Assembly (NCBI RefSeq): GCF_034259325.1
Contig: NZ_JAXIVS010000010.1
Span: forward strand, 186,001 to 250,000
Length of the DNA stretch: 64,000 nt
Direction: 5' to 3'
Source of the DNA: Hyalangium ruber
Lineage (GTDB): Bacteria > Myxococcota > Myxococcia > Myxococcales > Myxococcaceae
Part shown: positions 29,402-42,980 of the stretch, piece by piece
How the letters are laid out: every line of letters starts with the position of its first letter
How positions within the stretch are numbered: the first letter of the stretch is position 1
Position numbers and translations under genes: made by a program
The notes under the pieces: generated by a model
What the model was told of the DNA's origin: nothing
The model's input: only the letters and a program-made list of their open reading frames with translations
Databases searched by the model: none

Positions 29402-29434
29402 CCCGGCTCCGAGGGGCACCACCGTGGCCTCGCC

Positions 29435-29839
29435 TCAGTCGGGCCCCTCGTTCGTTTTCTTCCGGAGCAGGAAGGCATCCGCGAAGCCCTGCACGCGGGC
29501 CTGCGGCCTCGAGAAGATGAAGGTGATGATGCTGACCCGCCGCTCCGAGTACGCGGTCGCCAGCTCCGCGATGGAGCGCACATCGTCGGAGCTCGCCGGA
29601 CTGTAGCGGTACGCCACCGGCGAGTCCCCGCTGCGGACGAGCAGCCGGCTCCCGGCGAGGTCCTCCAACCGGAGGGCCGCGGATGCTTCGGTGATGCGCA
29701 GCTCCAGTGCCACCGCGGATGCCGTCCATTCCCGCTCCGTCACGTTTCGAAGCAGGAGGAGGACCTCCAGCTTCTCGATGGAGTCGATGTGCGTCATGAG
29801 GAAGCGCTGGACCCGCTGTGTAAGAGCGGCTTCAGTCAC
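29435..29839 (-). CDS. Small winged-helix-like transcriptional regulator
   Basis: A 134-residue protein with a helix-strand pattern of a winged helix: IEKLEVLLLLRNVTEREWTA, VALELRITEASAALRLEDLAGSRLL (putative recognition helix), then RYSPASSDDVRSIAELATAY and a C-terminal helix SIITFIFSRPQARVQGFADAF. It resembles MarR/ArsR-sized regulators but no named family is certain. A GTG start at 29839 is chosen; the frame upstream lacks sense. Two 20-bp direct repeats lie 21-60 bp upstream and overlap the likely promoter, so it is probably autoregulated. Convergent with the enoyl-CoA hydratase. Confidence 0.6.
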   Translation of the reverse strand: MTEAALTQRVQRFLMTHIDSIEKLEVLLLLRNVTEREWTASAVALELRITEASAALRLEDLAGSRLLVRSGDSPVAYRYSPASSDDVRSIAELATAYSERRVSIITFIFSRPQARVQGFADAFLLRKKTNEGPD

Positions 29840-29847
29840 GCAGCTAC

Positions 29848-29899
29848 CTATTATCCTGGTTACTTTGAGCGTCAACCAATTACTTTGAACATCAACAAA
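29848..29899 (-). promoter_or_regulatory. Promoter overlapped by two 20-bp direct repeats
   Basis: Direct repeats at 29860-29879 and 29880-29899 on the + strand: TTACTTTGAGCGTCAACCAA and TTACTTTGAACATCAACAAA (17 of 20 matches), each holding the dyad TTGAnnnTCAA. On the - strand the first repeat supplies a -35 TTGACG (29875-29870) and, 16 bp on, TAATAG (29853-29848) could be the -10. Transcription would then start near 29841, almost at the GTG, so the message may be leaderless. An AT-rich patch in GC-rich DNA. Confidence 0.5.
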
Positions 29900-30071
29900 T
29901 AACTCGCATGGGACTGTTCCCCAGGAATCACGTGCCCGCGCCCGTCCGGTTGAGCGCCCAGGACCGGGCGTCCGCCGTCCTCCTGGGTTGCTGCCTCCTC
30001 CGGCCGTTCGTAGCTTTCGAGAAGCGCGCTCGGGCCGCGAGCGAGCACCGATCAGGAAGGACGGTGGCGGG

Positions 30072-30986
30072 ATGGGGAAGGAGCGCGCGGGCCCGATGGA
30101 GGCGCTTCGCAACCTGGCGTTGACGCTCAACCGCCTGGCGGTGCGCGAAGCCACGAGCGGCGCGGTGCGAGGGGCGGCTGACGGACTGCGTCAGGAGCTG
30201 CCGGAGTTCGACGCGCAGCTGCGCGCGCTGTTGGAAGACGCGCTCACGGTGCTGGGGCGGCTGGTGCATCAAGCGGCCGAGCGAGAGGGGCAGGAGCCGG
30301 GGGCGGCGGCCCGCACGCTGGCGACGTCGGCGATGCAAGGGGCGCTGGAGGTGCTGGAGCAGGAGTGGCAGGACGGGGGCATGCCGCTGCACTCCTTCGT
30401 GGAGCGCCTGAACCGGCTGCTGGACGAGGTGGTGGCCTTCGCCCACTCGCGCACCGAGGAGATTCACTCGCCAGGAGAGCGCGCCCAGGCCATGGCGCGG
30501 GGGGTGGTGACGGCGGCCATGGAGGGGCTCCACGGAGCTGTGCCGACCTTCGCGGAGGACGCGCGGCTGCTGGCGCCGCTGGGAGCGGAGGTGGCCTCGA
30601 AGGTGGGCCAGGGGCTCGTGGAGGGCGTGGCGTCGAAGCTCCAGGAGAACTCCGACCCCTTCGAGAAGCTGCTCGAGCGCGCCGGCCGAGGACTGGTGCG
30701 GGGCATCGCCGCGGGTATCCGCGAGGAGCTGGCGTCCAGCCCAGGGGCTTCGCGCGAGGCGCTGGGGGCGTCCCTGGAGACGCTCGTCGAGCGCTCCGCG
30801 GCCGCGACCGTCCGAGGTGCTGGCGGGGCGCTGTCGCAGCAGTGGCGGAGAACGAGCCGGGAGCTCACGAACGGCGCGCTGGAGGCACTGGGGACGGTGC
30901 TGCGCCGACCGCTGCGGGTCGCGGTGGGCGCGGGCAGTGCGCTGGTGGCCCTGTCCCTCTTATCGATGCGCTGGCGCCGCGCTTGA
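30072..30986 (+). CDS. Helical hypothetical protein with C-terminal membrane anchor
   Basis: 304 residues, almost entirely helical and rich in Ala/Glu/Arg/Leu with no Cys. Several segments have the loose pattern 'G(A/V)..GA...L..E' (AVRGAADGLRQELP, GLVRGIAAGIREEL, TVRGAGGALSQQW) that could be weak internal repeats. The last helix (about 277-296, VAVGAGSALVALSLLSMRW) is hydrophobic, making it a tail-anchored protein candidate. The ATG at 30072 was chosen; 30096 is an alternative. I do not recognise a family. It is convergent with the orphan immunity gene, 18 bp apart. Confidence 0.6.
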   Translation: MGKERAGPMEALRNLALTLNRLAVREATSGAVRGAADGLRQELPEFDAQLRALLEDALTVLGRLVHQAAEREGQEPGAAARTLATSAMQGALEVLEQEWQDGGMPLHSFVERLNRLLDEVVAFAHSRTEEIHSPGERAQAMARGVVTAAMEGLHGAVPTFAEDARLLAPLGAEVASKVGQGLVEGVASKLQENSDPFEKLLERAGRGLVRGIAAGIREELASSPGASREALGASLETLVERSAAATVRGAGGALSQQWRRTSRELTNGALEALGTVLRRPLRVAVGAGSALVALSLLSMRWRRA

Positions 30987-31004
30987 GACGGAGCAGAGCC
31001 GAGG

Positions 31005-35615
<4,611 letters not shown>

Positions 35616-35686
35616 CTCTGCACCTTCCTCGACGTCAGCGGTACAGGCCTTGACGTTGCCGGTGGCCTCTCTGTCAAAGTGCTGGG

Positions 35687-36520
35687 GTGATCCTCTGCCC
35701 AGAATGCGGTGCCTCCAACTCCGAGACACGCGAGTACTGCCTGGGCTGCATGGGCGATCTCCCTGAGAACCGTACGGCCAAGCCCGCTGCTGGAGGGCCC
35801 GGTACAAGCAGCGGCGCCCCGGACGGAGAGAGTGCCGCCATCACCGATAGTGCGCCCCCCGATGGGGTGGTGGCCTCGATGGAAGCGGCGAATCGCCTCG
35901 ACGTTCCAAGCGCCAGTGTCTCAACCGCCGCGTTCTCCGAGTCCGAGGCACTGACCATTCCGGGCTCTGCGTGTCCGCGTCACCCGGACATGCCCGCCGC
36001 TGGCACCTGCGTGCGGTGTGGGACGTTCTTCTGCGCGCAATGCGTCCCAAGCGTCCTCGAGAAGAACATCGAGTGCCCCAGCTGCCTCGAATCGAAGGAG
36101 GGACGCGACGCACCGGCGACGGTGAAGGCCATCATCCGGGAGCAGTGGAGCACCCTCGCGCTGCTGGGCCTGCTCGTCGGCGGAGTCAATTTCGCCTCCG
36201 TGATCGCGAACTCCGAGCGGTTCAACCTCGGTGGCGACACGGGACTCTTCGTCATCGCGTTGCTCACGGGTGCCCTCATGGCCCTGCCCTTCGCCATCGC
36301 CGCGCTGATGGTGGGCCTCGTTCGACGCATGTGGGCAATCTGGGTCGGCTATGTCATCGAGACCGTGATGTTCGTGCTGATCGCGCTCATCTCCTTCGGG
36401 TTCAACTTCATCACCGCCATCTCCATCGGCGTGCCCATCTGGTCACTGACTCGCGTCCTCAGATTGGGCGAACTCATGCAGAAGTATCCGAACGCGCTGG
36501 AAGCCAGTCGCAGCGCGTGA
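35687..36520 (+). CDS. Zinc-ribbon/B-box membrane protein
   Basis: 277 residues. An N-terminal zinc ribbon CPECGASNSETREYCLGC (C4, C7, C18, C21), a low-complexity Ala/Gly/Ser/Pro linker, a B-box-like finger CPRHPDMPAAGTCVRC...FFCAQC (about 95-121) plus CPSC, then four membrane helices (about 150-255) resembling a Yip1-like bundle. The start is GTG at 35687. It lies 71 bp after the NTPase gene on the same strand and could share its transcript. Function unknown; zinc-binding cytoplasmic parts suggest a scaffold or a regulator of a membrane event. Confidence 0.7.
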   Translation: MILCPECGASNSETREYCLGCMGDLPENRTAKPAAGGPGTSSGAPDGESAAITDSAPPDGVVASMEAANRLDVPSASVSTAAFSESEALTIPGSACPRHPDMPAAGTCVRCGTFFCAQCVPSVLEKNIECPSCLESKEGRDAPATVKAIIREQWSTLALLGLLVGGVNFASVIANSERFNLGGDTGLFVIALLTGALMALPFAIAALMVGLVRRMWAIWVGYVIETVMFVLIALISFGFNFITAISIGVPIWSLTRVLRLGELMQKYPNALEASRSA

Positions 36521-36543
36521 GCAGCGCTCCAAGGCCAAGGAGT

Positions 36544-37431
36544 TCAGAGTGGCTGCACCGAGTCGAGGATCGCCAGGTTGCGCGCCAGGGTGTGCTCGAG
36601 ATGGGCCAGCGGCGACTGGGTGTCGATGCACAGGAGCGTCGTGCCGTAGGTGCGTACCTCGCGAATTCGCACGGTCGGGTAGGTCTCCCGGGTGCCGTAT
36701 CGCATGGCCCGTGCGCTGGCGGACCGGGCCAGGGCTGGGTGATCGATAGGTGTCTCGACACCGAAGCCCTGAAGGTTGACCTCGGCCAATTCTTCCAGCT
36801 CCGCCGGGTCCACGTCGCGGACGACCTGCAGGAGAAACTGGTTGCGACAAGGGTTCTTCGACTGCTCCAGCCAATCGATCGCCGGCGCCGCGAACGTCAC
36901 CGCATCGGCCACTTCGCGCGTGAGCTGCCAGGTCTCCGGAAGCTGGAAGCGAAACCCTTGAGCCTCGACGACATGCAGCGGCACCGCGTAGGACGCTGCC
37001 AGCGCACGCAGCGCCAACAAGCCCGGCGTGGCGATCTTGGAGATGGAGGCGTTCTGGGTTCTGGCCAGCTTGTCGTCGAGCCGTTGCAGGGTCGCCGCAT
37101 CCAGCGGGGCCTGATTGAGGAAGAAGCGCACGCAGTCGTACTCGACCCAGTCGAAACCGTCATCCAGGTGTCGCAGCGCTAGCGGCGCAGCGTCGGCGTA
37201 CCAGCGATGCGCGATGGCCTCCAGCGCCAGGCTGCCCAGGCGCCGCATGTGCGGCGAAGCCTGATCAAACAACTGGCGGATCAGGGCGAAATCCCGCGCG
37301 TCCTCCACCGCTCCGGCCAGCCCCTGGCCGACACGCAACTGCTCGGCGAAATCAACCCTGCCGTCGCCTTCCGCCAGCGCCTCCTCGAACGAACGGATGC
37401 GGCGGTTCATCTCCTCGAGTTGGTCAGACAT
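36544..37431 (-). CDS. Hypothetical protein of a possibly foreign cassette
   Basis: A 295-residue soluble, mostly helical N-terminal half (SDQLEEMNRRIRSFEEALAE) with a beta-richer C-terminal half. No motif recognised. GAGAGGGTG precedes the ATG at 37431, and the first 8 bp overlap the end of the upstream gene, so the two are co-translated. Its protein style (few Ala/Arg runs, SDQLEEM start) looks unlike its neighbours and more like a gammaproteobacterial protein; this is an impression, not a measurement. Confidence 0.6.
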   Translation of the reverse strand: MSDQLEEMNRRIRSFEEALAEGDGRVDFAEQLRVGQGLAGAVEDARDFALIRQLFDQASPHMRRLGSLALEAIAHRWYADAAPLALRHLDDGFDWVEYDCVRFFLNQAPLDAATLQRLDDKLARTQNASISKIATPGLLALRALAASYAVPLHVVEAQGFRFQLPETWQLTREVADAVTFAAPAIDWLEQSKNPCRNQFLLQVVRDVDPAELEELAEVNLQGFGVETPIDHPALARSASARAMRYGTRETYPTVRIREVRTYGTTLLCIDTQSPLAHLEHTLARNLAILDSVQPL

Positions 37432-37939
37432 CACCCTCTCGTTGGGCGCGACTGATCCATTGAAAGAAAGCCGCATGTGCGGCCACCACCTCGGGAGGTA
37501 CGTTTCCGAGCGACAGTTGCAGACGGAAGTAGGCCGCCAGCTGGCGCTCGCCCTCCTTCGACAATGGCGACCCCAGCAGCGTCAGTGGCCGGGCCTGGAG
37601 GATCTCGAGTTCGGGGCCGGTCAGCGGCCGCACGCCGTGCCGAGGACCGGGCTCGATGACTTGTCGCAGCAGTTCCAGGCGCGACTCGCCGCTGTCCAGC
37701 ACATGGCGAATCCTGGCCCAGACCGGGCCGCGGAGCTCGCCCGACGTGAGCTGGGCGAGATTCAGGGCACGGGCGTACGCATAGAACACCAGCACACCGT
37801 CGCGTACCGGCCAGCTCGAGGGGATGGGGTCGGTCAGGACGTATTGCCAGACGAGATCACGGCCCCCGGGGCGGAGCGTTTCCCAGACCGGACGAACGAG
37901 GTCATCCACGAGGGCGAGGCGTTGCGAGTCCGTCAGCAT
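37424..37939 (-). CDS. Hypothetical protein, second gene of the cassette
   Basis: 171 residues, soluble, helical, with 'GVLVFYAYARALN' and 'GPVWARIRHVLDSGESRLELL' segments but no known motif. Its ATG overlaps the stop of the truncated upstream gene (ATGCTGA) and its own stop overlaps the next ATG by 8 bp. Such tight overlaps show the genes once worked as a three-gene unit. Function unknown. Confidence 0.6.
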   Translation of the reverse strand: MLTDSQRLALVDDLVRPVWETLRPGGRDLVWQYVLTDPIPSSWPVRDGVLVFYAYARALNLAQLTSGELRGPVWARIRHVLDSGESRLELLRQVIEPGPRHGVRPLTGPELEILQARPLTLLGSPLSKEGERQLAAYFRLQLSLGNVPPEVVAAHAAFFQWISRAQREGDV

Positions 37940-38095
37940 CGTCGGTCATCCAGGCTCTGGCCGTCGGGCTGCGGCACGTCGCGCCAGCCGTCGGTCCTGT
38001 CGTGGCGGTCGACCCCGAAGGACATCCCCCCTCGAAGCCGTTCATCACCGCCACATCGTCGTCGATCTCGCTGAAGAAACAAGCCGCACGGAGTA
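37933..38095 (-). pseudogene. Truncated and frameshifted 3' end of a lost upstream gene
   Basis: Read on the - strand, FFSEIDDDVAVMNGFEG continues one frame away as MSFGVDRHDRTDGWRDVPQP and ends DDRRC, stop, at 37933. The frame jump lies in a run of six G, consistent with one lost G. The 5' part is absent; non-matching sequence lies upstream. Its stop overlaps the ATG of the downstream gene as expected for an operon. Confidence 0.5.
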
Positions 38096-38104
38096 GCGAG
38101 CCGC

Positions 38105-38314
38105 TTACAGCTCGCGGTCCGCCTCCTCCTGAAAGGCGCGGTACTCGTCGTCTGTCGTGTTCTCCAACGCCTTGGCGTTCAGCTCATGAGGACGGTCAGC
38201 GAGGATCTTCCCGTGGTCGCCGGCCCAATCGAAGTTCAGATAGCGATTGTCGAAGAGAAAGTGGATGAACTCCTCCGCCACATAGACGCAGGAGAATTCT
38301 CGCAGCAGGTTCAT
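38105..38314 (-). pseudogene. Short fragment of an unrecognised gene
   Basis: A 69-residue frame beginning MNLLREFSCVYVAEEFIHFL and ending YRAFQEEADREL. Its composition is like a genuine protein C-terminus (balanced, acidic), but there is no ribosome site and the frame runs on upstream into EQEHHGVCETRA and then into the hairpin element. I infer a 5'-truncated gene end. It could also be a tiny intact gene. Confidence 0.35.
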
Positions 38315-38344
38315 CGCCCGGGTCTCGCAAACTCCATGGTGCTC

Positions 38345-38382
38345 CTGCTCAACCTGTCCGGCTGTCTGACAGGTTTGAGCAG
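38345..38382. repeat. 25-bp palindromic element, copy 1 (downstream of kinase gene)
   Basis: Core at 38351-38375, an imperfect palindrome AACCTGTC...GACAGGTT, extended by CTGCTC/GAGCAG arms into a longer stem with one bulge. It is 39 bp past the stop of the kinase gene. The core matches the element at 39794-39818 at 22 of 25 positions (same strand comparison). No T-run follows, so it is not a textbook terminator. Confidence 0.7.
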
Positions 38383-38420
38383 AGCCCGCCGGTCCGGGGC
38401 GACGGCGACCAGGACGGTGC

Positions 38421-39728
38421 TCAGCGGGCATTCGCGGGGGCCGAGGTAGGCAGCGGCTTGTCCGGGAGTTCGAGGGCGGGGGCGTAGCACTTGCCCTTGC
38501 TGTACGCGTAGCCGTTCTCCATGCACACCTCGGCGGTCGTCGCGGGTTGTTCCACCCAGCAGCCTCCGTTGATGGAAACCTGGGTGCTCCCCGGGCAGCG
38601 GCCCTTTCCATCGGGTCGGGTCTGTCCGGGGCGGGGCGCGAGGGGAACGGGCTGAGCCACGGGCTTTCGCTCGGCGGAAGGATGGGCGGCTGCGGGAGTG
38701 GTGAGCAAGGAGTCGCCCACGGCAGCGGTGCCTGCGTCTGGCAACTCGGCGTCCGCGTTCTCCTGCCCTCGCGTGGACACGGCCTGCACGGTCCACAGGA
38801 GGAGCGCGGACAGTCCCACGGCGGCCAGGGCGAGCCATGACTGCCTCCTGCGCACCCGCGCGCGAGACCTCTCGGGAAGACGCTCTTCGGCGACGGCCTC
38901 CAGCGCCTCGGCCAGCTCTGCCGCCGTGCCGCGAGCCTCGGGAGACTCCGAGAGCATGCGGAGGATCAACGCACGTAGACGCGGGTCGGGGTTCTCCAAT
39001 CGCCAGGCACGGGCTTCGTCCGCACGAGTCTCCATCGAGGGCGGATACTCGCCCATGACGAGGCGGTAGGCCGTCACGCCCAAGGCGAAGACGTCATCGG
39101 CGGGCGGGGCCGCATAGTGAGCGTCGCGGTCGCCGACGGAGTCGCGCAGGAACCGACACGCCTCGGGAGACCGATAGGCAGAGGTACCGGGAGGCAGGGA
39201 CTGCCACGTGAGACGGGTGGCGCCCTGGAAGTGGCCCGAGCCGAAGTCGATGAGGAAGGCCCGGCCATCGGAGTGGCGCACCAGAATGTTGCCCCCTTTG
39301 ACATCCCGGTGAACGGCGTGGGCGTCATGGGTAGCCGCGAGGGCCCGGGCAACCTGGGAGAGGAGCTGACACACCTGCCGGGAGGAAGGGGTGTGGCGCT
39401 CCGCCCAGGCATAAAGGGGTGTGCCGTCGATCCACTCCAGGATGAGGTAGGGATGCTCCACTCCAGAGGCATGGCGCAGAACACCGCGGCCGAGCAATCG
39501 CGGGACGCTGGCGTGGCGGAGGCGGTCGAGCAACTCCGCCTCGCGCACGAAGCGTGGGTCCCACGGGTACACGGAGAGCTTGAGGGCACCGGGGTCCGTA
39601 CTCTCCGGGCCGACGGGGAGGACACGGTAGACGACTCCGTAAGTGCCAGCGCCTACCCGCTCTGCCACACGCCAGTCCCCGACCTGCAGCCCAGAGGGAA
39701 GCGCCTTGAGGGCACGCTCGTTCGCCAT
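38421..39728 (-). CDS. Hanks-type serine/threonine protein kinase with extracellular tail
   Basis: 435 residues. Kinase domain about 15-280: glycine loop VGAGTYGVVY (25-34), Lys50 in ALKLS, catalytic HRDVKGGN (Asp142, Asn147) and DFG Asp161, with APE-like SPEA at 187-190. All catalytic residues are present, so it should be active. One membrane helix at about 297-315, then a Pro/Ala-rich outside part (about 320-385) and a Cys-containing motif CPGSTQVSINGGCWVEQ and CMENGYAYSKGKCY that recurs in myxobacterial kinases. It starts at the ATG at 39728. Palindromic elements lie on both sides. Confidence 0.92.
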   Translation of the reverse strand: MANERALKALPSGLQVGDWRVAERVGAGTYGVVYRVLPVGPESTDPGALKLSVYPWDPRFVREAELLDRLRHASVPRLLGRGVLRHASGVEHPYLILEWIDGTPLYAWAERHTPSSRQVCQLLSQVARALAATHDAHAVHRDVKGGNILVRHSDGRAFLIDFGSGHFQGATRLTWQSLPPGTSAYRSPEACRFLRDSVGDRDAHYAAPPADDVFALGVTAYRLVMGEYPPSMETRADEARAWRLENPDPRLRALILRMLSESPEARGTAAELAEALEAVAEERLPERSRARVRRRQSWLALAAVGLSALLLWTVQAVSTRGQENADAELPDAGTAAVGDSLLTTPAAAHPSAERKPVAQPVPLAPRPGQTRPDGKGRCPGSTQVSINGGCWVEQPATTAEVCMENGYAYSKGKCYAPALELPDKPLPTSAPANAR

Positions 39729-39793
39729 GAAACCCGGAGGCTACGTCACACGTAGGAAGTCGTCACCAGTCGCAGTGCGTAAGGCTCTGGTGC

Positions 39794-39818
39794 AACCTGT
39801 CTGGTTGTCAGACAGGTT
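39794..39818. repeat. 25-bp palindromic element, copy 2 (downstream of protease-nuclease gene)
   Basis: A perfect 10-bp stem AACCTGTCTG / CAGACAGGTT with a 5-base loop GTTGT, 24 bp past the stop of the protease-nuclease gene. With copy 1 it brackets the kinase gene. It may act as a 3' end hairpin or be a REP-like element. No T-run. Confidence 0.75.
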
Positions 39819-39842
39819 TATCCAGTGCCCCTACGCAGGGGT

Positions 39843-42320
39843 TCAGCCGAGCCCTTCGCTGAAGTCCACCAGCTCGGCCCACTCCGGATGGTCGATGAAG
39901 GGGTTGCGGTTGCCCTGGCGCTCGAAGATGGCTTCGTTGCGGTGCCGCTCGTACAGCGCGGGCGGGTCCTCCTGGTGCCAGTTCAGCAGCAACTCCAGCC
40001 GGCTCTCGTCGTACTCGGTGGAGGTGCGGTTGATCTCCCCCGGATAGCGCAGCAGGAAGTAGAGCGTCGCCCGCGCCACCGTGCCCTTGCCCCGCGTGGG
40101 CTCGAACTTGTTGCCCACCCGCTTGCCACACTCCTCTCGCAGCGCCTCCTCGAAGTCCGGGAAGTCGAAGTACGGCGTGTTGCCTCGGAAGCTGTTGCAC
40201 CCGGACTCGCACGCGAACAGGTGGTGCAGGTCCCCTCGCATCGGCTCGCGCTTGGCGAACCACGACTGCGGCACCACGTGCTCGCAGTTGTAGGGCAGCG
40301 CCGCCTCCAGCAACTCCAGCTCCGCCGTCATCGCCTCCGCGCCCAGCGCGCTCTCGGTCCCCAGCACCTCGCGGAAGCGCGCCGCACGCGCCTCGTCGAT
40401 GCGCGCATCCTCGCGGATGAAGTCCTCCGGCTCGTACTCCTTGCCCGAGTAGATGCTTCGCAGCAGCCCATCCGGATACAGCTCCACCCACGGGTAGACC
40501 TCGCGCATCGGCGCGTAGCGCACCAACGTGCGGTGGGTGCCACGCACCAGCTCGCTCAAGGCCGCGTAGTCCGGCTCCTCGCCGAGCGTCTCGTAGTAGC
40601 GCTCCCGCGCCACGCGCGCGGCGGCCTCGTCGAAGTATGGCCGGCTCCGCGACCGCTCCAGCTCACCGAGCGCCGCCTCCAGCATGAGCTCCGAGCCCGT
40701 CCGCGCTCGGGCCGCCTTCGCGGGCCTCCGCTTCAGCACATCCTGCGCGGAGACGATGAGCCCCGGCTCTCCTGTCCCCTCTCTCGCGGGAGCCGTCACG
40801 CCCGCCAGCCCGATCTGGATGCTCAAGCGCAGCGGCAGCGTCAATGTCGCGCCTCCGTCCGTCAAGATCACCCGCCCCTCCCCTGCCTCGGGCGAGGCGA
40901 TGATGCGCGGGCCGTCCTCCGCGCGCGCCTGCTCCTGCCTGCCCTCGGAGAGCGGCTCCGCGCCGGTGGGCTCCTCATCCATCATCGGCTCGGACGCCTG
41001 GGACTCCATGCGCTCCTGCTGGCCGTTGGGCTTCTTCCCCGTCTTGCGCCGACTGACCGTGGACTCCACCGGCCGCTTGCGCGAACTCGGACGCGCCCGC
41101 GCAGAGGCCTCGGAGATTCCCATGGGCTCGAGCAGCTCCGCGCGCAGCTTGCTCGCCGCGGCCGAGAGCGTCTGGGCGCGCACGTGCCGCACCAGGCTGC
41201 TCACGCGCGTGCCCTCGTTGGCCTTCCAGTCCAGCAGCGCCGGATCCATCCCCGGCTCCCAGGTCTCGCCCTCCAGCGTGAGCAGGCGCCCGTCCTCCGT
41301 GCGCTTGGGCACGCCCATGTGGTGCAGCGCCACCACCTCCCACTGGTCGTTGTACACGGGCGAGCCCGAGGAGCCCGGCGCCGTGTCCGTCAGGTAGTGG
41401 CAGAAGTCATCCAGCAGGTCGACGACCTGGTTCTCCCGCAGCGCCAGCTGCTTGGGCTCGCCGTTGGGGTGCTGGATGATGTTCACGTACTCGCCGAGCA
41501 GCACCTTGCCCTGCGCTTCGATGAGGCGGGTGAAGCCGAACTCGCTCAGCGACATGCCCGTCAGCGACTCGGGCTTCACCGCCACCAGCGTGTAGTCGAG
41601 CTTCACGTCCGTGAGGAAGAGGGCCGCCGGATCCAGCGCGAACACGACCGAGGGCAGCGCGCCCCCATCCAGCCCTGACTGGTAGTTGAACTCGATGCGG
41701 CTGTTGCCCGCCTCCGCCGCGGTCCGCAGCACGTGGTTGTTGGTCAGCATCAGCCGGGGCGACACCAGGAAGCCCGTGCCGTAGCCCACCACCCGCCCGC
41801 GCGAGTCACCGATGTGGACCCGCCCCACCGAGCGCGACACCTTCAGCCCTCGCTCCAGGAAGCATACGCTCGTCAGGTCGCTGCGCCCCAGCACCCGCTC
41901 GTACACCAGCTGCGCCGGCTCGGCGGTCGCGGGGACGATCTTCGTGCGCAGGCTCGCCGTGTCGATGCGCGGCTCGCCGCGCTCCACGCCCTCGATGCCC
42001 AGCCGCTTCATCCGCGCGTGGACTCGCTCCGGGCTGTCCACCTCGATGGGCGTGAGGCCCTCGTCCTCGAGCTGATGCAGCACGGTCTCTCGCACCGGGC
42101 TCCGCTCGCGGTAGCGCCGCTCGGCCTGCTCGAGCTGCTCGTGGACGCGCTGGTACCACCCCTCGGCGGTCCTCGGGCCGCCCGTCGCCTTCGCCGGAGG
42201 CACGGGAACCTCGACACCGCGCCCATGGCCGTTGCCGCGCTCTGCCCCCATGCCAAGCCCCGCCGCATAGCCCGTACCGTCCTTGCGAGGCGGCGTCTCC
42301 TCTCTCTTCACGTAGCCCAT
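39843..42320 (-). CDS. Trypsin-like serine protease fused to endonuclease I
   Basis: 825 residues, no signal peptide. About 120-345 is a chymotrypsin-fold protease with His196 (LTNNHVL), Asp242 (LDYTLVAV) and nucleophile Ser318 in APGSSGSPV. A Ser/Arg/Glu-rich linker (about 400-470) follows. About 560-825 is an endonuclease I domain: CEHVVPQSWF (H681), DLHHLF (697-702), the 'N.FRGN' loop (709-714), KGTVARATLYFLLRYPGEI, and RNEAIFERQGNRNPF (794-808). Both active sites look complete. The shared cytoplasmic location suggests a latent nuclease released or triggered by the protease, a logic seen in conflict systems; that is inference. GGGAGGTCGCC precedes the ATG at 42320. The kinase gene is 114 bp downstream. 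Confidence 0.85.
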   Translation of the reverse strand: MGYVKREETPPRKDGTGYAAGLGMGAERGNGHGRGVEVPVPPAKATGGPRTAEGWYQRVHEQLEQAERRYRERSPVRETVLHQLEDEGLTPIEVDSPERVHARMKRLGIEGVERGEPRIDTASLRTKIVPATAEPAQLVYERVLGRSDLTSVCFLERGLKVSRSVGRVHIGDSRGRVVGYGTGFLVSPRLMLTNNHVLRTAAEAGNSRIEFNYQSGLDGGALPSVVFALDPAALFLTDVKLDYTLVAVKPESLTGMSLSEFGFTRLIEAQGKVLLGEYVNIIQHPNGEPKQLALRENQVVDLLDDFCHYLTDTAPGSSGSPVYNDQWEVVALHHMGVPKRTEDGRLLTLEGETWEPGMDPALLDWKANEGTRVSSLVRHVRAQTLSAAASKLRAELLEPMGISEASARARPSSRKRPVESTVSRRKTGKKPNGQQERMESQASEPMMDEEPTGAEPLSEGRQEQARAEDGPRIIASPEAGEGRVILTDGGATLTLPLRLSIQIGLAGVTAPAREGTGEPGLIVSAQDVLKRRPAKAARARTGSELMLEAALGELERSRSRPYFDEAAARVARERYYETLGEEPDYAALSELVRGTHRTLVRYAPMREVYPWVELYPDGLLRSIYSGKEYEPEDFIREDARIDEARAARFREVLGTESALGAEAMTAELELLEAALPYNCEHVVPQSWFAKREPMRGDLHHLFACESGCNSFRGNTPYFDFPDFEEALREECGKRVGNKFEPTRGKGTVARATLYFLLRYPGEINRTSTEYDESRLELLLNWHQEDPPALYERHRNEAIFERQGNRNPFIDHPEWAELVDFSEGLG

Positions 42321-42395: not shown

Positions 42396-42770
42396 CTAGA
42401 AGTCGACGCGCAGGAGAGGCAGGTAGGGAGAGACCGAGGTGGACGTCGCATCCTCCACGGCCGAGTCCGCCGTGGTGGTGAGGACCGGGAATGGCCCCGT
42501 GCGCCGCACCGCTCCTGGCAGCATGTCGAGCTGCCAGCCTTCTTCCGTGAGGCGCAGGTAGCCGAGCACCGGCTGGCGCGTGTCCGCCGGCTCCAGGTCC
42601 GGGGTGACGATGAGGGCCTCTTCCAGCTCCGTCATGGCCGACGTGCGAGCGCCCGGAGCCGCGGCCAGGGAGACCCCGGGTAAGAGGAGCCCAAGGCCAC
42701 AGGAAGCCGCGAACAAGCCCATGAGCGCGTTCCGGTTGCGCACCGCAGCGGCCGTCATGCCCAGAGCCAT
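42396..42770 (-). CDS. Small secreted protein of unknown function
   Basis: 124 residues with a signal peptide (about 1-36, RNRNALMGLFAASCGLGLLLPGVSLAAA) and a compact mature part with ALIVTPDLEPADTRQPVLGYLRLTEEGWQLDML and several Thr/Ser near the end. No family recognised. GGGAGG lies 9 bp before the ATG at 42770; an ATG at 42758 is an alternative. It is 75 bp upstream of the protease-nuclease gene on the same strand, so a link in expression is possible. Confidence 0.6.
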   Translation of the reverse strand: MALGMTAAAVRNRNALMGLFAASCGLGLLLPGVSLAAAPGARTSAMTELEEALIVTPDLEPADTRQPVLGYLRLTEEGWQLDMLPGAVRRTGPFPVLTTTADSAVEDATSTSVSPYLPLLRVDF

Positions 42771-42980
42771 TGTTCGCGACCTCCCTACTCTGGAAACACA
42801 TGAGGGGGCAGGGAGGTTTCCCAATGCCGGGCCGGCAGCGCGCCACCCGGCGGTACCGGGTTTCATTCCCGGCCGACGCAGGTGCCGGCCGCTTCACCGG
42901 TCCCTGGGGAAGGGCGCGGGAGCGACTTTGCGTAGGGCCGGCCTTGCCGGCCTGCCTGCTTCGGTGTGGAGTGCGCCGCC

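Follow-up and report, generated by a model that had tools for sequence, protein, structure and literature searches.

Does one gene of the myxobacterium Hyalangium ruber encode two enzymes and, if so, might the first control the second? The question is raised by a 64,000 nucleotide stretch of the genome, referred to here as the window. The gene concerned is on the reverse strand (39843..42320) with its ATG at 42320 and a stop codon ending at 39843. The sequence GGGAGG, resembling a ribosome binding site, is directly ahead of the ATG. The 825-residue product has two modules: a trypsin-like serine protease (aa 136-400) and an endonuclease I (aa 542-825). Both are recognized by Pfam, with scores far above cut-off, as Trypsin_2 (residues 181-332, E 1e-22) and Endonuclease_1 (residues 674-813, E 6e-33). 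On balance, we lean towards the protein being a single-gene nuclease effector, controlled by its protease, of a cytoplasmic suicide or antiviral conflict system. It would then be an endonuclease I variant of the NucA-trypsin type described below.

The two enzymes and their linker

The protease module is encoded by positions 41121..41915 of the reverse strand. Its catalytic triad, H196, D242, and S318, is identical in all 64 fusions that were aligned. Around the S1 pocket, H333, T313, and D312 are also invariant. Judged by sequence, H333 and T313 appear similar to residues in the S1 pocket of glutamyl endopeptidases. Note that D312 has no such likeness; it is an additional invariant residue compared to FAM111A, the V8/ESP glutamyl endopeptidases, and the Deg/HtrA proteases. 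These Trypsin_2 proteases have the same fold and catalytic triad as the fusion, with approximately 13-20% identity in structural alignments. Foldseek searches, using residues 136-400, recovered FAM111A, glutamyl endopeptidases, and Deg proteases. The best match was the serine protease domain of human FAM111A, a DNA-replication-linked protease, with many trypsin-like folds scoring almost equally. On the basis of the structural model, bacterial relatives of FAM111A may exist. Sequence matches in the PDB were to proteases of the glutamyl-endopeptidase and exfoliative type.

Endonuclease I is a well-known family of periplasmic DNases. The domain in the fusion (39846..40697, reverse strand) scores 115 bits against the PF04231 profile, for which the curated cut-off is 25, and has matches in the PDB. 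Residues E680, H681, N709, R794, N795, and N806 are the same in all 64 aligned fusions, and E705 is present in 62. With an alignment to solved enzymes alongside, we take E680, H681, and N709 to be equivalent to E79, H80, and N127 of Vvn. This Glu-His and Asn catalytic core is common to EndA, Vvn, and NucM, and the C-terminal QGN.NP motif of these enzymes has a similar counterpart in the fusion. Conversely, the N-terminal part of the domain has diverged, and the whole is joined to a protease. Four cysteines (C679, C704, C708, and C731) are invariant in the 64 fusions and may form a structural metal site. None of the solved endonuclease I enzymes aligned has C704 or C708 and, in one, Ala and Val occupy the positions. 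The other endonuclease I of the Hyalangium ruber genome (L176) is a separate gene with no protease.

Both enzymes of the fusion look active, on the basis of these residues. A preliminary description of the locus had already called the two active sites complete. The numbering given there, for H196/D242/S318 and H681, is correct. Moreover, the six catalytic residues do not vary among the 64 fusions, and neither catalytic set is degenerate in homologues. Comparisons among four close relatives indicate purifying selection on both domains; dN is approximately 0.11, dS approximately 0.3, and dN/dS approximately 0.3-0.4, these rates being rough because the genome is GC-rich.

Ahead of the protease is a helical region (aa 51-135; 41916..42170, reverse strand) common to other family members. 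AlphaFold2 predicts helices at residues 51-106 and, for distant family members, homology begins at residue ~57-63. Known endonuclease I enzymes are periplasmic or secreted, and have an export signal, although this is not a strict criterion for the family. In contrast, no N-terminal hydrophobic segment, signal peptide, or transmembrane segment was found in the window protein or any of the 64 aligned fusions. The preliminary description had likewise reported no signal peptide.

The linker between the enzymes had been described as 70 residues of flexible Ser/Arg/Glu sequence. The AlphaFold2 model, which has pLDDT >90 along most of both domains, has pLDDT<50 over residues 402-538. The disordered linker is thus ~137 residues long (40707..41117, reverse strand). 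It is also fast-evolving. In comparisons with the window gene, dN is 0.57-0.67 and close to dS, at 0.60-0.91, synonymous rates again being rough in this GC-rich genome. For the four close relatives, a dN/dS of 0.7-0.95 indicates hardly any purifying selection. Even so, the linker is more than a flexible spacer, because it contains a conserved, strand-like motif, DGGATLTLPLRLSIQIG (aa 488-504; 40809..40859, reverse strand). The consensus is D-G-x-[AV]-T-[WL]-T-[IV]-P-L-x-[IV]-[ST]-V-x-L-G, or DGxATWTIPLxVSVxLG in short form, and it typically lies 45-60 residues ahead of the nuclease. We found the motif in 77 of 83 distinct linkers, where shuffled sequences predict 0.42. The motif is present, too, in 7 of 22 fusions with a NucA-type nuclease (0.1 expected), and in three loci (L041-L043) where the protease is strongly diverged. 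It was not found in the subtilisin-associated, stand-alone endonuclease I proteins examined. Our literature search recovered no earlier description of the motif.

One strongly conserved element, within such a linker, suggests regulation. We hypothesize that the motif is a gate or an assembly element. A more detailed version of this idea, which we put forward tentatively, is that the motif could be a switch. Strand-like, and unstructured in the monomer, it might mask the nuclease or drive ordered assembly of multiple copies, the outcome being trans activation of the nuclease by the protease. If so, the same regulatory element would serve nucleases that are unrelated (endonuclease I and the NucA of some fusions) and would move with different protease clades. 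AlphaFold2 monomers, of the window protein and a Nostoc homologue, do not dock the motif onto either domain; they leave it disordered, at low confidence, and provide no usable inter-domain arrangement (pTM 0.50-0.52). No conserved cleavage site was found in the linker. A Glu/Asp-specific site was considered and rejected; the best position, ahead of the motif, is acidic in only 52% of sequences, which is too weak.

Distribution and modular evolution of the family

We scanned one genome for each of 84,980 species and obtained 319 matching stretches, 311 of which encode relatives. Of the best 80 loci, 75 encode trypsin with endonuclease I, and one encodes trypsin, EEP, and endonuclease I. The remainder are contig ends or broken frames. 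Recurrence of the fusion, in 76 of the best 80 loci and across many phyla, rules out a chance event or an assembly artefact. The preliminary description had allowed for the latter, and had proposed this kind of search by domain architecture. Hosts include Myxococcota, Actinomycetota (many Streptomyces), Cyanobacteriota, Nitrospirota, Planctomycetota, Chloroflexota, Acidobacteriota, and several Proteobacteria; among the genera are Nostoc, Nitrospira, and Methylobacter. Within the source organism's own family, three genomes encode the full fusion, with 69-72% identity. In six further matches from the same search, a related fusion has a protease that is more diverged. Distribution of the protease module is patchy. 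In the class to which a Leptolyngbyaceae cyanobacterium belongs, 12 of 194 genomes carry it; in the order of a Microvirga, the figure is 15 of 199. Viral contigs yielded no relatives and phage records gave partial domain matches only, so we rejected a virus- or phage-borne element.

The protease module has several partners. Its relatives carry a NucA-type nuclease (Endonuclease_NS), EEP (DNase I-like), EEP with endonuclease I, a GDSL hydrolase, or a subtilase. A quick tree was made for 78 protease modules, with many branches left open. On this tree, partner labels require 13 changes, a number well below the 34 obtained when they are shuffled. The forms containing EEP fall in a clade of their own (starred on the tree), separate from the main endonuclease I rows. 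Phyla are intermixed, as would be expected for horizontal transfer.

Triple fusions, of trypsin, DNase I-like EEP, and endonuclease I, are encoded in Myxococcus (L040:7162-10314, reverse strand) and on a Mesorhizobium conjugative plasmid (L032:5827-8598, forward strand). At L041-L043, endonuclease I is fused to the strongly diverged protease. On plasmids of Priestia and Lysinibacillus, a subtilisin (S8) gene overlaps, or abuts, an endonuclease I gene that stands alone and belongs to the same clade (L036:3593-5735 and L053:3970-5741). Since there are trypsin, diverged-trypsin, and trypsin-EEP fusions, in addition to overlapping subtilisin genes, it is probable that endonuclease I became associated with proteases on several occasions.

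Other combinations do not involve a nuclease. A Geminocystis plasmid encodes a trypsin module fused to a GDSL hydrolase (L035:1468-3456) and a more distant trypsin joined to an M74 murein endopeptidase (L035:5863-7431). In Hymenobacter, the trypsin module is fused to a subtilase (L050:4905-7856). The clusters also hold amidase genes and resemble an assortment of lytic enzymes with an N-terminal trypsin. Separately, three fusions have an extra domain C-terminal to endonuclease I; this is DUF1353 in L079, with a similar sequence in L078 and L130. What seemed to be separate trypsin and NucA genes, in Rhizobium 007, are more likely one frameshifted fusion, because the first frame ends within the start of the nuclease.

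Known systems and possible functions

A NucA-trypsin conflict system, termed 'System 3', was predicted by Kaur et al. 2020 (PMC7159879). Proteolytic deployment of the NucA nuclease was proposed and occasional partners, in a subset of operons, are EAD1-trypsin, trypsin-STAND, and subtilisin (PMC7159879). As in System 3, the fusions described here place a trypsin-like peptidase and an endonuclease in one polypeptide or operon. In both cases, many hosts are multicellular bacteria. There are also differences. The System 3 nuclease is NucA (PF01223), whereas the window protein matches endonuclease I (PF04231) only. Furthermore, the endonuclease I fusions are not mainly alphaproteobacterial, are usually a single gene with no EAD1 or STAND partner, and nearly all have the linker motif found in a minority of NucA-type fusions. 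Because the NucA domain is lacking, we class the fusion as a variant, rather than a member, of System 3. Most likely, it is a widespread form of the NucA-trypsin design in which NucA is replaced by a nuclease type previously unreported for such systems.

Pairs of proteases and nucleases are also known from Hachiman, AVAST, Lamassu, DRT, and Canu (Tuck et al. 2025, PMC12799240). For some of these pairs, a trypsin-like partner was shown to activate a pro-nuclease; the experiments concern MBL-fold pro-nucleases in Hachiman and AVAST, with a caspase in the case of Canu (PMC12799240). The fusion similarly couples a trypsin-like protease to a DNase. PADLOC matches its protease, weakly, to those of DRT-XI and Lamassu, and has no model for the fusion beyond weak matches, chiefly these. 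Both DRT-XI and Lamassu are among the systems that pair a nuclease with a trypsin-like protease (PMC12799240). However, in the described pairs the nuclease has an MBL fold, gating loops, and conserved isoleucines, and is encoded separately. In the fusion, endonuclease I is in the same chain and no gating loops were identified. Our search of open-access literature found no trypsin-endonuclease I fusion. Within that literature, the preliminary statement that no example has been described holds for endonuclease I. The underlying idea, however, was predicted with NucA in 2020 (PMC7159879), protease-activated MBL-fold pro-nucleases being shown in 2025 (PMC12799240).

The strongest functional clue is an operon of Nannocystis poenicansa (L110). 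Genes for trypsin-NACHT, EAD1-trypsin, and trypsin-endonuclease I stand in succession, separated by 2 and 29 bp. The trypsin-NACHT protein, of a sensor type, has 1266 residues and the triad is apparently present. A NucA-type gene is close to the operon. This matches the System 3 arrangement, with endonuclease I in the effector. Other neighbourhoods are varied. At a Planctomycetota locus, a CHAT protease adjoins the fusion. In Cyanobium, a subtilase gene is upstream and a gene for an AEGDSW-type hydrolase is 11 bp downstream; the hydrolase has no Pfam match and an apparent counterpart is fused to trypsin in Geminocystis. Microvirga has genes for an animal-type haem peroxidase and a subtilase upstream. 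Among 88 neighbours of non-Streptomyces loci, a few subtilases, TIRs, and trypsins were the only recurrent partners. Similarly, no recurrent neighbour family was found that could be a constant adjacent immunity gene, of the kind expected for toxin-antitoxin systems or polymorphic toxins. We rejected subtilase neighbours as system components. They are within 8 kb in approximately one quarter of loci, many of which are Streptomyces and so not independent, and there are 2-17 subtilases per genome in eight of the genomes concerned.

How might the fusion work? It would be made in the cytoplasm and held inactive. A trigger, such as a phage or damage signal, would assemble copies of the protein or activate the protease. 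In some species, a trypsin-NACHT or EAD1-trypsin partner could relay this trigger. The active protease, working in cis or in trans, would then cleave either a masking element or the disordered linker. Endonuclease I, freed or unmasked, would degrade DNA, resulting in cell death, growth arrest, or destruction of the invader. Latency, cleavage, the trigger, and the defence outcome are all steps that we infer. We argue for latency because a nonspecific DNase with no signal peptide would share the cytoplasm with host DNA and, as no inhibitor is apparent, has to be kept inactive. Release by the protease is favoured for the same reason, because the nuclease is covalently joined to a protease with an equally conserved active site, and because analogous systems deploy a nuclease by proteolysis (predicted in PMC7159879 and experimental in PMC12799240). 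The preliminary description had seen the logic of abortive infection, in the cytoplasm. This gains from the invariant sites, the missing signal peptide, the patchy spread across phyla, and the Nannocystis operon; control or release of the nuclease by its own protease is, here too, presumed.

Further observations in favour of a conflict system are the proteases repeatedly paired with endonuclease I enzymes of this clade, the alternative NucA-type, EEP, GDSL, or subtilase partners of the same protease module, the weak match to DRT-XI and Lamassu, and purifying selection that acts on both domains and hardly on the linker. Counted against it are the lack of a constant neighbour or sensor, with no EAD1 above cut-off in the Hyalangium ruber genome, and the absence of matches in viral contigs. 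The same applies to the failure to find a cleavage site or a usable inter-domain arrangement. Finally, the fusion gene has a stable chromosomal place in close relatives, unlike a mobile defence island. Note also that no EAD1-trypsin or STAND-trypsin genes were seen near the fusion gene in the window.

Might the two activities be independent? Each could degrade foreign, or the cell's own, nucleoprotein, with the linker a mere tether and no activation of the nuclease by the protease. The AlphaFold2 model of the window protein, with folded, well separated domains and a long, disordered linker, is consistent with this. So too is the assortment of non-nuclease hydrolases, GDSL and subtilase, carried by the same protease. 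However, a cytoplasmic DNase that is always active, with no inhibitor, would be toxic, and the conserved linker element suggests regulation. We consider this explanation unlikely. A role in digestion or predation, following non-classical export by an injection apparatus, vesicles, or lysis, is quite improbable. Here, the protein and DNA of prey or competitors would be degraded. Myxobacteria are predators, loci elsewhere include genes for amidase, murein endopeptidase, subtilase, and PHB-depolymerase, and a type II secretion locus surrounds one NucA-type relative. In addition, a small gene upstream of the fusion in the window clade (42396..42866, reverse strand) appears to encode a secreted protein. 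Conversely, all 64 fusions lack a signal peptide, non-predators such as Nostoc, Nitrospira, and Methylobacter have the fusion, and the Nannocystis partner genes encode NACHT and EAD1 proteins. Repair of DNA-protein crosslinks or nucleoprotein, by analogy with FAM111A as best structural match, is hardly credible given that many trypsin-like folds score nearly as well, and that the sporadic distribution, swapped partner enzymes, and NACHT/EAD1 context are unlike housekeeping repair.

If the preferred reading, of a nuclease held under protease control, is correct, endonuclease I joins the nucleases that bacteria have apparently placed under proteolytic control. The logic would parallel, by analogy, that of the caspase-activated DNase of animals. 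Being compact, the one-gene arrangement opens protease-to-nuclease control to study within a single polypeptide. The linker motif is a precise, mutable target for understanding how cytoplasmic nucleases stay silent.

Surroundings of the gene in the window

The small upstream gene, at 42396..42866, has a likely signal peptide and no Pfam match. It is kept in two related genomes, was seen only in the window clade, and is an uncertain candidate for membership of the system. On the other side, a 10.4-kb stretch of lower GC content (29,405-39,839) separates the fusion gene from an enoyl-CoA hydratase gene. Two related genomes have the same flanks and, in these, the fusion and enoyl-CoA hydratase genes are direct neighbours. 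Hence, the stretch has the appearance of an insertion, unless the relatives have lost it. Two of its genes are of interest. One, for a Ser/Thr kinase (38421-39728), is also on the reverse strand and lies downstream of the fusion at a distance of 115 bp; no such gene was seen beside the fusion in the related genomes examined. The other is on the forward strand, where positions 31731-35615 encode a 1294-residue protein with a phosphorylase (PNP)-like N-terminus, an NTPase-like middle, and TPR repeats. PADLOC matches this to PDC-M60C and a PN-superfamily effector, and it is likely to be a defence or conflict protein.
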